Positions 2,952 to 57,550 of a stretch of DNA of 64,000 nt are shown here, piece after piece. The notes under the pieces are model-generated. The model was not told the origin of the DNA, did not search any database, and saw only the letters and a list, made by a program, of their open reading frames with translations. A program made the position numbers and the translations under genes. This DNA is from Serratia marcescens (GTDB lineage Bacteria > Pseudomonadota > Gammaproteobacteria > Enterobacterales > Enterobacteriaceae), in the NCBI RefSeq assembly GCF_001902635.1, contig NZ_MJAO01000006.1, positions 124,001-188,000 on the forward strand. The letters are read 5' to 3'. Numbering within the stretch: the first letter of the stretch is position 1; every line of letters starts with the position of its first letter.

Positions 2952-3279
2952 GTGCACTGCCGTATAGGCAGCTTAGAAATGCACCCAGAATCAGTCAGTC
3001 TTTTGAACCAGGTTCACTGCCGTATAGGCAGCTTAGAAATGATTTGGTTGTTGTAGCGCTCATGGGACATAGTTCACTGCCGTATAGGCAGCTTAGAAAA
3101 ACGCCAATCCCATCAGCAGAGGGGCGATTAAGTTCACTGCCGTATAGGCAGCTTAGAAAAGAGGCGATTTTACGGCTGGCGCAGGCTGTCAGTTCACTGC
3201 CGTATAGGCAGCTTAGAAAGGCGATGCCGGTGCCGCTCTCACTGTTCGCCGGTGCACTGCCGTACAGGCAGTTTGAAAT
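2952..3279 (+). CRISPR. Orphan type I-F CRISPR array, 6 repeats and 5 spacers
   Basis: Six 28-base repeats start at 2952, 3012, 3072, 3132, 3192 and 3252. Each of the five spacers is exactly 32 bases. The repeat begins GTTCACTGCCGTATAGGCAG and ends CTTAGAAA, the type I-F (Yersinia) repeat. The first repeat carries GTGCAC in place of GTTCAC. The last is degenerate at several places (GTGCAC, TACAGG, TTTGAAAT), marking the leader-distal end. No cas gene lies in the window, so the array depends on Cas proteins elsewhere or is silent. No spacer matched another part of this window by eye. Confidence 0.97.
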
Positions 3280-51425: not shown

Positions 51426-52952
<1,527 letters not shown>

Positions 52953-53219: not shown

Positions 53220-54314
53220 GTGATCATCATAAGATATCTGGTACGGGAAACGCTCAAGAGCCAAATCGCCATCCTGTTCATCCTGCTTCTGATCTTCTTT
53301 TGTCAGAACCTGGTCAGGGTGTTGGGCGACGCGGTGGACGGCAATATCCCGACAAACTTAGTACTCTCCCTGCTCGCGTTGGGCGTGCCGAAAATGGCGC
53401 AGCTCATCCTGCCTTTGAGCCTGTTTCTCGGCTTGCTGATGACGCTTGGGCGGTTGTATACCGAGAGCGAAATCACCGTCATGCACGCCTGCGGGCTGGG
53501 CAAACGCACCCTGATTATCGCCGCCATGATCCTGGCGCTGTTCACCTCTGCGGTCGCGGCGGTGAACGTGTTCTGGGCCGGCCCCTGGGCCTCGCGCTAT
53601 CAGGACGTGGTGGTGAACGAAGCCAAGGCCAACCCGAGCATCGCCGGGCTGGCAGAAGGGCAGTTCAAACCCTCGCAGGACGGCAACGCGGTGCTGTTTA
53701 TCGGCAACGTGAAGGGCAGCACCTTCAACGACGTGTTCCTGGCGCAGCTGCGGCCGAACGGCAACCAACGCCCGTCGGTGGTGGTAGCTGAACACGGCAA
53801 CATCGTGCAGCAGAAAGACGGCTCGCAGGTGGTGACGCTCGACAAGGGCACCCGCTTTGAAGGCACCGCGCTGCTGCGCGACTTCCGCATTACCGACTTC
53901 AACGACTACAAAGCGGTGATTGGCCACCGCACCGTGGCGGCGGACAACACCGAATCCGAGCAGATGTCGATGCAGACGCTGTGGGAATCCGACGATCCGG
54001 ACGCGCGCGCCGAGCTGCATTGGCGCCTGACGCTGGTGGTGTCGGTGGCGCTGATGGCGCTGCTGGTGGTGCCGCTCAGCGTGGTGAACCCGCGCCAGGG
54101 CCGCGTGCTGAGCATGCTGCCGGCCATCCTGCTGTATCTGATCTTCTTCCTGCTGCAGACCTCGCTGCGCTCCAACGCCGGCAAGGGCAAGCTGGATCCG
54201 ATGCTGTGGCTGTGGCTGGTTAACGGCGCTTACTTCGCGCTGGCGCTGGCGCTGAACCTGTGGGATACCGTGCCGATGCGCAAACTGCGCGCACGCCTGA
54301 GAGGAGCGGCCTGA
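53220..54314 (+). CDS. lptF: LptF, LPS export permease
   Basis: A 364-residue inner-membrane subunit of the LptB2FG transporter, which lifts LPS out of the inner membrane. Three membrane segments lie on each side of a periplasmic beta-jellyroll. The start is a GTG at 53220 (VIIIRYLVRETLKSQ), aligned with E. coli LptF; an upstream ATG at 53133 adds residues foreign to the family. It overlaps lptG as TGATG. Confidence 0.95.
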   Translation: MIIIRYLVRETLKSQIAILFILLLIFFCQNLVRVLGDAVDGNIPTNLVLSLLALGVPKMAQLILPLSLFLGLLMTLGRLYTESEITVMHACGLGKRTLIIAAMILALFTSAVAAVNVFWAGPWASRYQDVVVNEAKANPSIAGLAEGQFKPSQDGNAVLFIGNVKGSTFNDVFLAQLRPNGNQRPSVVVAEHGNIVQQKDGSQVVTLDKGTRFEGTALLRDFRITDFNDYKAVIGHRTVAADNTESEQMSMQTLWESDDPDARAELHWRLTLVVSVALMALLVVPLSVVNPRQGRVLSMLPAILLYLIFFLLQTSLRSNAGKGKLDPMLWLWLVNGAYFALALALNLWDTVPMRKLRARLRGAA

Positions 54315-55384
54315 TGTTTGGCGTATTAGACCGTTATATCGGTAAAACGATTTTCAACACCATCATCATGACGCTGTTCATGCTGGTGTCGCTGTCCGGC
54401 ATCATCAAGTTCGTCGATCAGCTGCGCAAGGTGGGCCAGGGCGAATACACCGCGCTGAGCGCCGGCATGTACACCCTGCTGAGCGTGCCGAAAGACATCG
54501 AGATCTTCTTCCCGATGGCGGCGCTGCTCGGCGCGCTGCTCGGCCTGGGCCAGCTGGCGACGCGTAGCGAACTGGTGGTGATGCAGGCTTCCGGCTTCAC
54601 CCGCCTGCAGATCGCCGGCTCGGTGATGAAAACCGCCATTCCGCTGGTGTTGCTGACCATGGCTATCGGCGAGTGGGTGGCGCCGCAGGGCGAGCAGATG
54701 GCGCGCAACTACCGCGCCCAGCAGATGTACGGCGGCTCGCTGCTCTCCACCAAGAGCGGGCTGTGGGCGAAGGACGGCAACGACTTCATCTACATCGAGC
54801 GCGTCTCCGGCGATAAAGAACTCTCCGGCGTGAACATCTACCACTTCAACGATCAGCGTCGCCTGGAGACGGTGCGCTATGCCGCCACCGCCAGCTTCGA
54901 GAAAGGCCTGTGGCAGCTTTCGCAGGTGGACACCTCGGATCTGACCAACCCGAAACAGGTGACCGGCACCCAGACGCTGACCGGCGAATGGAAAACCAAC
55001 CTGACCCCGGACAAGCTGGGCGTGGTGGCGCTGGATCCGGATTCGCTTTCCATCAGCGGGCTGCACAACTACGTGAAGTACCTGAAGCAGAGCGGCCAGG
55101 AGTCCAGCCGTTACCAGCTCAACATGTGGAGCAAGATCTTCTCGCCGCTGTCGGTGGCGGTGATGATGCTGATGGCGCTGTCGTTCATCTTCGGCCCGCT
55201 GCGCAGCGTGCCGATGGGCATCCGCGTGGTGACCGGCATCAGCTTTGGCTTCCTGTTCTACGTGCTGGATCAGATCTTCGGCCCGCTGAGCATGGTATAC
55301 AACATGCCGCCGGTGCTGGGTGCGCTGCTGCCGAGCATGCTGTTCCTGCTGATCAGCGTGTATATGCTGCTCAAACGCAAATAG
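54314..55384 (+). CDS. lptG: LptG, LPS export permease
   Basis: A 356-residue partner of LptF. It starts MFGVLDRYIGKTIFNTI at 54314, sharing a base with the lptF stop. Membrane segments lie at both ends (for example SPLSVAVMMLMALSFIFGPL). A terminator follows. Confidence 0.96.
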   Translation: MFGVLDRYIGKTIFNTIIMTLFMLVSLSGIIKFVDQLRKVGQGEYTALSAGMYTLLSVPKDIEIFFPMAALLGALLGLGQLATRSELVVMQASGFTRLQIAGSVMKTAIPLVLLTMAIGEWVAPQGEQMARNYRAQQMYGGSLLSTKSGLWAKDGNDFIYIERVSGDKELSGVNIYHFNDQRRLETVRYAATASFEKGLWQLSQVDTSDLTNPKQVTGTQTLTGEWKTNLTPDKLGVVALDPDSLSISGLHNYVKYLKQSGQESSRYQLNMWSKIFSPLSVAVMMLMALSFIFGPLRSVPMGIRVVTGISFGFLFYVLDQIFGPLSMVYNMPPVLGALLPSMLFLLISVYMLLKRK

Positions 55385-55436: not shown

Positions 55437-55713
55437 GTTGGCACGGAATTATTCCGCCGATAGGCTGACATGTTCCTATAGTTGATGACATTCGATATAA
55501 ATCTAAAAAATAGATAAAATCAGATAGGAATTATATTATTTTGATTGAAAGGGTGGTGGATGAATATAGTGATGGTAGTCGATTTTTTTCGGTGCTACAT
55601 AATAATCCGTCTGAACGACTAACGGTCTGTCAAAGCACTGTGTCTTAGTTTGATTGGTGTCTAACTCACTAAATTAGTACAATTTTTCCCTTATATATCG
55701 CTGATAAAAATAT

Positions 55714-55835
55714 AAAAAAAAACCTGGCCTCGTCGGGCCAGGCTGCCAATATAGGCCAACACCAGGGAAAATTTTCTTGCATCATCTTAAAACTATTAAC
55801 TCCGCAGAGGCAAGTGCTCTCTGCTGGTTTTTAGC
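55714..55835 (-). ncRNA. ArcZ-like Hfq small RNA
   Basis: On the minus strand the sequence TTTCCCTGGTGTTGGC (complement of 55755-55770) matches the conserved seed core of ArcZ. As in ArcZ, a GC hairpin and a T run follow: CCTGGCC-cgacga-GGCCAGG (55723-55742) then nine T (55714-55722). The 5' end is a guess from the usual ArcZ length of about 120 bases. The upstream half does not match E. coli ArcZ clearly. E. coli arcZ is next to arcB, so this could be a second, related RNA. A stem CAGAG/CTCTG lies at 55805-55823. Confidence 0.6.
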
Positions 55836-56167: not shown

Positions 56168-57550
56168 TTACAGCAGCCAGTCCAGCAACACCACGCCGCA
56201 CAGGCTGATGGCCCAGGCGATAGTGGTGGGCACCGACCACACCATCATCTGTTGGCGTACATCCTTGATGCCCATCATGCGGTTGACCACCCAGAACATG
56301 CTGTCGTTGAAGTAGCTGAAGAACAGCGCGCCCAGGGTGGCCGCCTGCGCCGCCGCCAGCATATTGACGCCGGGCAGCAGGCTGACGATCGGTGCTGAGA
56401 TCGACGCGGCGGTGATCATCGCCACCGTGCCGGAACCCTGTATCACCCGTACCAGTGTGGCGATGACGAACGGGATCAGCACCGGCGATATCGGCAGCCC
56501 GGCGACCTGCTGCGCCAGCTGCGTGCCGGCGCCGCTCTCGCGCAATACCGCCCCCAGCGCGCCACCGGCGCCGGTGACCAGCAGGATGATGCCGGCGGTC
56601 TGCAGGCCTTCCTCCAGCCGCTCCAGCGTGTCGTGCTTGTTGGCGTGCGGCATCAGGGTGTACACCGCCAGCAGCACGCTGATCGCCAGTGCGATCATCG
56701 GCGAGCCGAGAAAGGCGAAGCTTTGGCCCCACAGGCTTTCCGCCAGCCAGCCCATGCCCTCGCGCTTGGCCAGCATATTGTTGACCGCGTTGACGAAGAT
56801 CAGCCCGATCGGCGTCAGGATCGGCAACAGTGATAACGTCAGGCTCGGCAGCGCCTTGCCCTCTTTCTCCGCCAGATACTGCTGATGCGCGGCGCGCAGA
56901 TCCTGCGGCGCTTCCTCTTCCTGCGGCATAAAGTCTGGGTAGCGCGTGCCTAGCCAGCGCGCATACAGCACGATGCCGATCACACAGGGGATGGCCAGCA
57001 CCAGCCCGGCCAGCATCATGGCGCCGATATCCACGCCGAAGATGCCCGCCACGCCCAGCGGCCCCGGTGTTGGCGGCACCGCGTGGTGGGTGAGGATCAG
57101 CCCGCCCGCCAACGCGACGCCAAGCGTCAGCAGGTTGCGCTTGCCCTTTTTCGCCAGCGCCTTGACCAGCGGATAGAGGATGATGAACGCCGAATCGACA
57201 AAGATCGGGATGCTGACGATATAGCCGGTGATGGCCAGCGCCCACTCTTCGCGCTTTTTGCCCAGCCATTTGATAAAGCTGTAGGCGATCTGCTCGGCGG
57301 CGCCGGAGACTTCCAGCACCCGGCCCATCATCACCCCCAGCCCGATGACGATGCCGATGCTGCCGAGCGTGGAGCCGAAGCCCTTGGTGATGGCGTCGAC
57401 GGTTTGCGTGGCGCCCATCCCGCCGGTAATGCCGGCGATGGAGGCGGCGATCAGCATGGCGATCAACGCATGCACGCGGGTGCGCAGCACCAGGAAGATC
57501 AGCGCGAACACCGCCACCGCCAGCCCGATGATTGGGGTATACATCGCCAT
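56168..57550 (-). CDS. GntP-family sugar-acid/H+ symporter
   Basis: A 460-residue inner-membrane permease of the gluconate:H+ symporter family, with about 12 hydrophobic segments and the conserved ILTHHAVPPTPGPLGVAGIFG and VIQGSGTVAMITAASI. By its neighbour denD it probably carries a four-carbon sugar acid such as erythronate or threonate. It starts 2 bases after denD. Confidence 0.88.
   Translation of the reverse strand: MAMYTPIIGLAVAVFALIFLVLRTRVHALIAMLIAASIAGITGGMGATQTVDAITKGFGSTLGSIGIVIGLGVMMGRVLEVSGAAEQIAYSFIKWLGKKREEWALAITGYIVSIPIFVDSAFIILYPLVKALAKKGKRNLLTLGVALAGGLILTHHAVPPTPGPLGVAGIFGVDIGAMMLAGLVLAIPCVIGIVLYARWLGTRYPDFMPQEEEAPQDLRAAHQQYLAEKEGKALPSLTLSLLPILTPIGLIFVNAVNNMLAKREGMGWLAESLWGQSFAFLGSPMIALAISVLLAVYTLMPHANKHDTLERLEEGLQTAGIILLVTGAGGALGAVLRESGAGTQLAQQVAGLPISPVLIPFVIATLVRVIQGSGTVAMITAASISAPIVSLLPGVNMLAAAQAATLGALFFSYFNDSMFWVVNRMMGIKDVRQQMMVWSVPTTIAWAISLCGVVLLDWLL

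Follow-up and report, generated by a model that had tools for sequence, protein, structure and literature searches.

The Hfq-associated RNA ArcZ, also called SraH or RyhA, is a central regulator through which oxygen is linked to RpoS, to motility and to secondary metabolites. The question raised by the locus described here is what an ArcZ-like core, followed by a terminator, is doing away from arcB in a stretch of Serratia marcescens DNA (hereafter the window, meaning all 64,000 nucleotides analysed). An initial annotation had recognized sixteen bases of the ArcZ seed core with a terminator behind them, lying between lptG and a gntP-type gene; the match is indeed an exact 16-mer and the neighbours are as described, and the strand, absent from that annotation and fixed here, is the minus strand (Table 1).

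Table 1. Features of the ArcZ-like locus, in positions of the window.
Feature	Position	Strand	Basis or remark
Predicted small RNA, ~64 nt	55714..55777	minus	Promoter spacing, terminator, conservation island, fold; 5' end (55775-55779) inferred from promoter, 3' end within T-run
ArcZ seed core TTTCCCTGGTGTTGGC, 16 nt	55755..55770	minus	Exact match
Small hairpin GCC-TATATT-GGC, 3' of core	55745..55756	minus	Fold
Rho-independent terminator, 9-pair stem (55744-55721) and nine T (55722-55714)	55714..55744	minus	
-10 element TAAGAT	55784..55789	minus	13 nt upstream of core; promoter scan
-35 element TTGCCT	55808..55813	minus	Promoter scan
Imperfect dyad CAGCAGA-11 nt-TCTGCGG, overlapping -35	55802..55826	minus	Sequence
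Conserved block in 13 Serratia loci including the window (-60 to +59)	55711..55830	minus	
Deletion scar	55459..55598	none	Alignment to S. marcescens 106R
lptG, conserved left neighbour	54260..55384	plus	Initial annotation; position beside lptF-like frame
GntP-family transporter, right neighbour	56168..57550	minus	TIGR00791

Relocation of arcZ is ruled out, as arcZ still sits beside arcB: the genome search for an arcB-linked arcZ that had been proposed as a check recovers it, intact, at G000:C9:35630-35735 with 83.3 bits against Rfam RF00081, its core starting 48 bases away from where the arcB reading frame ends (HKR_ArcB_TM and other domains). The gene in the window is therefore an additional gene and, judged by its sequence, a paralogue. 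The proposal of a second copy with its own control survives to the extent that there is an extra copy of the seed, under separate control, while arcZ remains at arcB, but the copy is not a single one, and belongs to a large family.

The window RNA resembles ArcZ in its 16-nt seed core, in the small hairpin that comes next (GCC-TATATT-GGC in the window, GCGC...GCGC in ArcZ) and in its terminator. In passages of an ArcZ review, the processed form of 55-60 nt is described as the active one, most likely freed by cleavage (PMC11331407), and in the window RNA, as in that form, the core is predicted to be exposed. It differs from ArcZ in lying away from arcB, in lacking the ArcZ 5' half, in having its own promoter and in probably being born short. 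RF00081 aligns end to end at the window locus with 20.1 bits, below its gathering cut-off of 66, so that the window RNA is not an Rfam ArcZ; among ten family loci scanned with Rfam at gathering thresholds, arcZ alone gave a match.

The exact 16-mer occurs three times in this genome, in the window (contig C6), at arcZ (C9) and on contig C13. With up to two mismatches there are 20 sites as against 2 for a reversed control, and core, hairpin and T-run come together at five loci: the window, arcZ, C13, C25 and C27. Across the genus, the 14-mer TTTCCCTGGTGTTG is present in 150 exact copies in 29 of 30 genomes and its reversed control in none; a script placed a terminator 3' of 128 of the 150, with 1-6 such places per genome, the other 22 being coding or unexplained. 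In the wider family, 67 of 119 genomes carry the 14-mer, many of them at arcZ alone or in a coding match, and since the census requires the exact 14-mer, drifted copies are missed from it. The contexts of all 150 genus places and of part of the others, 213 of them distinct, were grouped by flanking similarity. Class 0 is arcZ (56 members), followed by classes 1 (26), 2 (19, including C13), 3 (17), 4 (14), 5 (13, including the window), 6 (12, including C25), 7 (11), 8 (6), 9 (3), 10 (3) and some small ones. A terminator lies 43-53 nt past the start of the core in every member of classes 0-3 (56/56, 26/26, 19/19 and 17/17), in 13/14 of class 4, 13/13 of class 5 and 12/12 of class 6. It was found at 0/11 class-7 loci and 0/12 loci of classes 8-10, whose core matches we rejected as sRNAs, class 7 appearing by eye to be a LacI-type gene; the singleton classes 25, 28 and 37 pass the terminator script and look doubtful. 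As far as sequence can tell, the window RNA is thus one of many related RNAs in which the seed and 3' architecture of ArcZ are used again.

Several further loci are worth recording. Those at G000:C27:24586-24599 (L057), near dsbB and ycgN, and G000:C25:9518-9531 (L056) have core and terminator of the TTTCCCTGGTGTTGTTGTGTGTC type; the first recurs in 26 genomes of the genus and the second in 12, in neither case with lux genes. Class-3 loci (L191, L160 and others) have core and terminator with variable upstream sequence; L191, which has an MFS gene on one side and a DUF1097 gene on the other, is perhaps freed from an mRNA 3' end. Core and terminator also occur amid small prophage-like genes at L218 and L219 (genome G021) and L154 (G029), with an Rz lysis protein as neighbour in L218 and a DUF2513 protein in L154. 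Among 80 IMG/VR loci listed, at least four viral contigs (L277:1475, L309:1587, L310 and L334:2440) have core, hairpin and T-run, in the form TTTCCCTGGTGTTGGCCAGCC...GCTGGTC; the APSE phages LR794147, LR794148 and LR794152 match the L309 stretch at 80%, and a copy in APSE-2 near an annotated integrase has one core mismatch (TTTCCCTGGTGCTGG) with hairpin and T-run present. The window sRNA itself had no match when searched against phages. Elsewhere in the window, a CRISPR array with CRISPR-DR4 repeats lies at 2952-3219 on the plus strand, and Rfam Ysr276 matches 52185-52379 (plus strand, 194 bits), antisense inside a pepA-like frame (51426-52937), a match that may reflect coding conservation alone.

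When the window locus was used as a BLAST query, with no demand that the core be present, matches came from 13 further genomes of the genus (E<=1.1e-17). Twelve of them keep the core unaltered, and the thirteenth, G010, has a decayed orthologue with a deletion between the -10 and the core in addition to a core mutation. The 12 intact orthologues, which were chosen for an identical core, form a conservation island that spans -60 to +59, and identity falls off to either side of it. In RNAalifold of 44 relatives, 10 pairs were predicted, 7 of them with changes on both sides; 95.2% of cells are paired and 23 cells are changed on both sides, and none of 500 shuffles was as high on any measure and all six slid versions were lower, these statistics being read with the provisos that four of the seven double-change pairs rest on one sequence each and that related sequences can beat shuffles. 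In the terminator stem, each of the six consensus pairs is altered on both sides in at least one case. At columns 35-56 the window has a G-C pair, changed on both sides and unique among the 44, where eight class-5 loci have G-U, and at columns 18-26 of the small hairpin the counts are 29 C-G, 7 U-A, 4 U-G and 4 other. A covariance model (R1) built from the 44 relatives without arcZ recovers from this genome arcZ (E=1.7e-8), which we judge to be mostly through the core, C27 (3.8e-5) and C25 (1e-4), the next match being the class-7 coding site on C41 (0.002). The window has the core, small hairpin and terminator that define the R1 family, its score of 66.7 bits being high by construction as the window is in the training set.

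A promoter scan was confined to the 60 nt before the core, and its counts are of unique sequences at shuffle p<=0.05. Class 2 has TTGACA-17/18-(A/G)ATAAT in 16/16 unique sequences and class 5 has TTGCCT-18-TAAGAT in 7/9, the window at p=0.023, though with only four of six positions matching the consensus in each element. Among relatives, the -10 is TAAAAT in S. silvae (14 nt before the core) and TATAAT in Arsenophonus (13 nt), the latter with a poor -35 (p=0.14). Elsewhere the scan found 2/39 for arcZ, whose full-length RNA starts farther upstream, and 2/14, 7/21, 1/16 and 0/6 for classes 4, 1, 3 and 6. Because their promoter lies directly upstream of the core, RNAs of classes 2 and 5 are probably born at ~60 nt, shaped like processed ArcZ, and we limit this proposal to those two classes because the scan was poor in classes 1, 3 and 6. 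In predicted folds the core is unpaired at 0.90 in the short window RNA and 0.45 in a long version, compared with 0.96 in processed arcZ, 0.29 in full arcZ and 0.74 in the short C13 RNA. The "different 5' half" of the initial annotation is indeed dissimilar from that of ArcZ, but promoter spacing and fold indicate that it is most likely promoter and regulatory DNA and not RNA. The C13 sRNA, of class 2, offers a close comparison: it has the core, hairpin and terminator of the window RNA, has TTGACA-18-AATAAT just upstream and adjoins luxI/luxR, but lies at a separate locus near a GDSL autotransporter gene and is divergent from luxR.

The alternative would be a longer RNA whose start lies at 55830 or further upstream, making it ~120 nt or longer; it would carry a hairpin at its 5' end (GCAGAG...CTCTGC) and, like ArcZ, would have to be cleaved to free the core. 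It would account for conservation that starts at -60 and not at -35, and it has a model in class 4, which has a 5' hairpin in place of an adjacent promoter and whose member pPAR237 is given as 191 nt. Against this, the promoter is inside the block in 7/9 unique sequences, with TAAAAT or TATAAT in relatives; the region beyond -60, where the longer RNA would need its promoter, is less conserved; and the left hairpin arm is changed without compensation in 8/13 class-5 loci. We regard the longer RNA as unlikely, and a short primary transcript of ~64 nt in the window is supported by the promoter and fold predictions. The dyad over the -35 is a possible operator; its arms are perfect (CAGCAGA/TCTGCTG) in S. 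inhibens and Arsenophonus, and the operator reading is weakened because the left arm is CAGCTGA in 8/13 class-5 loci.

The neighbours of the family bring quorum sensing into the picture. Pfam identified an autoinducer-binding LuxR beside one class-2, one class-4 and one class-5 locus, and a LuxI beside C13. With HMMs trained on four LuxR and two LuxI sequences taken from these loci, which makes the source loci positive by construction, luxR and/or luxI are adjacent at 12/13 class-5, 14/14 class-4 and 10/19 class-2 loci, and at the single members of classes 17 (1/1) and 38 (1/1). The same HMMs found nothing beside arcZ (0/56), beside classes 1, 3 and 6 (0/26, 0/17 and 0/12; together 0/55) or beside class 7 (0/11). 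The linkage is not strict, as 9/19 class-2 loci are without lux genes. On named contigs, with arcZ excluded, lux genes lie no more than 2 kb away at 35 of 43 loci with the core and hairpin pattern, some few being weak or partial matches, and three of the eight without (L383, L407 and L408) are truncated near the RNA. Hosts include Serratia, Rahnella, Edaphovirga, Mixta, Pantoea, Rouxiella, Edwardsiella, Erwinia, Izhakiella, Hafnia, Yersinia and Arsenophonus. The window RNA also matches six plasmid records; the three that were opened all have intact core and T-run and, by depositor annotation, the neighbours are LuxR and LuxI in two plasmids of S. marcescens, and EsaR and EsaI in one of Erwinia. 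Orientation relative to luxR varies: class 2 is divergent, class 4 is upstream on the same strand and class 5 is convergent.

The location that had been called unexpected ceases to be so when relatives are compared: in other Serratia it is an lptG-luxR-(luxI)-sRNA island, from which the lux genes have been lost here. In S. marcescens 106R, S. ureilytica and S. nevei, luxR lies between lptG and the same sRNA, and in S. inhibens both luxR and luxI do. The window alignment leaps from 55458 to 55599 over ~980 nt of 106R that include luxR, ~140 nt in the window standing in for them, and from 55439 to 55554 over ~1.9 kb of S. inhibens that include luxR and luxI, where ~115 nt (55440-55553) take their place. 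Within 2 kb, luxR/luxI are absent at the window and present at all 12/12 other class-5 loci. These alignments indicate that luxR/luxI were deleted in the window between lptG and the RNA, and that the sRNA was retained. The sole autoinducer-binding LuxR found in this genome is at C13, and no lux box was seen by eye at the class-5 promoter; quorum control of the window copy may for these reasons have been lost.

Could the sRNA then be an orphan relic, unexpressed or useless since the loss of luxR/luxI, and drifting? The window is the sole class-5 locus of 13 without lux genes, no such LuxR was found outside C13, and G010 shows that decay happens. The window copy, however, has its core, -35 and -10 elements and terminator intact, its singular terminator pair has been altered at both positions without loss of pairing, as G-C, and the 9/19 class-2 loci without lux genes persist as well. 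A relic seems improbable to us, and we continue to favour a working sRNA gene.

One published RNA, from Pantoea, belongs to the same family. According to passages of PMC6749038, pPAR237 and pPAR238 of Pantoea ananatis are Hfq-dependent, lie near eanIR, are partly mutually antisense and are abundant at low density, pPAR237 having a predicted terminator and a listed length of 191 nt; no connection of pPAR237 to ArcZ is made in those passages. When the printed primers were mapped on the LMG 2665 contig, pPAR237 proved to be the core strand, and pPAR238 the opposite one, covering the complement of the core. By this mapping, pPAR237, published and unexplained, is a member of the ArcZ-seed family. 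It is like the window RNA in having core and terminator beside luxI/luxR (eanI/eanR), and differs in its class-4 arrangement, lying ahead of luxR in the same orientation, and in a long form with a 5' hairpin and the overlapping antisense pPAR238; the position of pPAR237 has no counterpart in the window, where there is no luxR and whose orthologues are convergent with luxR. In the literature searched, with the original YenS and EsaR papers and supplements outside its scope, we found no report of ArcZ copies or of an ArcZ link of pPAR237 or YenS, and the words copies, paralog and duplicat are absent from the ArcZ review (PMC11331407).

YenS and EsaS resemble the family in being a quorum-linked RNA or promoter beside luxR/luxI, and differ in being divergent from luxR and, for YenS (RF02374), in holding the complement of the seed and not the seed. 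As described in excerpts of the sources, EsaR represses esaR and, without AHL, activates the divergent esaS (PMC13365800), and in Y. enterocolitica YenS represses yenI, YenR activates YenS at low OHHL, and deletion of yenS lowers the hyper-motility of a yenI mutant (PMC3493969). YenS is present in 17/25 genomes of the genus of G107, taken as Yersinia on the strength of this match. Its site has three or fewer mismatches to GCCAACACCAGGGAAA in 16/17 genomes and five in one, a common change keeping a G-U pair and others (two genomes) losing pairing, and in 16/17 a core and hairpin locus lies on the same strand ~195-325 nt past the end of YenS (L252/L419, L468-L483). A sponge relation is plausible on these grounds, and would fit the yenI-independent effect of YenS on motility because ArcZ, according to excerpts, represses flhDC. 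No separate YenS-like sponge was found consistently near the Serratia loci.

These precedents are what might recommend a functional RNA on the plus strand of the window, an antisense or sponge RNA in the manner of YenS or EsaS that would pair with the ArcZ core: a near-complement of the core is conserved in YenS, pPAR238 is reported to be antisense to pPAR237, and RF02374 matches the plus strand with 12.1 bits. With a cut-off of 80, this score falls far short and comes chiefly from the complement of the core, and RF02374 has no match in this genome at E<=0.001; the T-run and promoter are both on the minus strand, and the divergent geometry of esaS, as its excerpted source gives it, is inapplicable to a luxR-convergent locus. 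We consider such an RNA very unlikely. Chance or convergent similarity to ArcZ, suggested by how little is alike outside the core and architecture, is the least credible reading of all, since the exact 16-mer, the nearly fixed terminator spacing in seven large sRNA classes and the excess of 150 over 0, which makes a chance match very unlikely, speak against it, and convergence on the seed, though possible, would itself imply function.

What the window RNA might regulate is suggested by its seed. Sharing of targets with ArcZ (rpoS, flhDC) would follow from seed identity; duplex energies with the rpoS and flhD leaders of this genome were not better than those of shuffles, a weak test for the window RNA, whose query was cut at 26 nt and had no GGC end. 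The luxI/luxR mRNAs were considered as common seed targets and rejected, as their energies scatter about the mean of mononucleotide shuffles, although z reaches -2 to -3.5 for certain leaders of luxR and luxI. At the class-4 loci L026, L030 and L198, the luxR leader has sites resembling CACCA-AGGGAA, for which duplexes with the core are predicted at -18.7 to -20.1 kcal/mol (z of -2.0 to -2.7 against shuffles); local feedback on luxR is possible at these three, and not general.

Taken together, we think it probable that the locus is a real gene for a trans-acting sRNA of the ArcZ-seed family, of the lux-cassette class, with a short primary transcript and ArcZ targets. Its expression, Hfq binding, target sharing and regulator are predictions of this model. 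The ArcZ seed and 3' end (exposed core, small hairpin and terminator) are reused under unrelated promoters, class 5 belongs to a luxR/luxI cassette beside lptG, and the window retains the sRNA after loss of luxR/luxI. A sigma-70-type promoter of its own would give a ~64-nt transcript equal to the active, RNase E-processed ArcZ and, being born in processed form, this RNA should be independent both of processing and of control by ArcA/oxygen. Its expected action is Hfq-assisted pairing with the targets of ArcZ, rpoS going up and flhDC and other mRNAs down. Multi-copy siblings tied to quorum sensing have a parallel in the Qrr sRNAs of Vibrio, which differ from the ArcZ-seed RNAs in having unrelated sequence and regulators.

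It is tempting to go further, and we do so tentatively, at odds we would put on the doubtful side of even: enterobacterial luxI/luxR cassettes, on chromosome or plasmid, may plug density sensing into the ArcZ regulon by means of a born-processed seed RNA and the sponges YenS and pPAR238/EsaS, a design that temperate phages would have borrowed. If so, YenS or pPAR238/EsaS, in Yersinia and Pantoea, would be sponges both of the neighbouring seed RNA and of ArcZ, and the effect of YenS on motility independent of yenI would be explained. Serratia has up to six loci per genome bearing seed and terminator. A family of same-seed genes would mean that the phenotypes of arcZ knockouts are perhaps masked in Serratia, Pantoea and Yersinia; through it, quorum sensing would reach the ArcZ regulon directly, and pPAR237, pPAR238/EsaS and the second role of YenS would gain a testable function. 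The born-processed design would be a natural test of the need of ArcZ for RNase E cleavage, and through the linkage to lux genes the control that ArcZ exerts over stress and motility may be coupled to the sensing of cell density.
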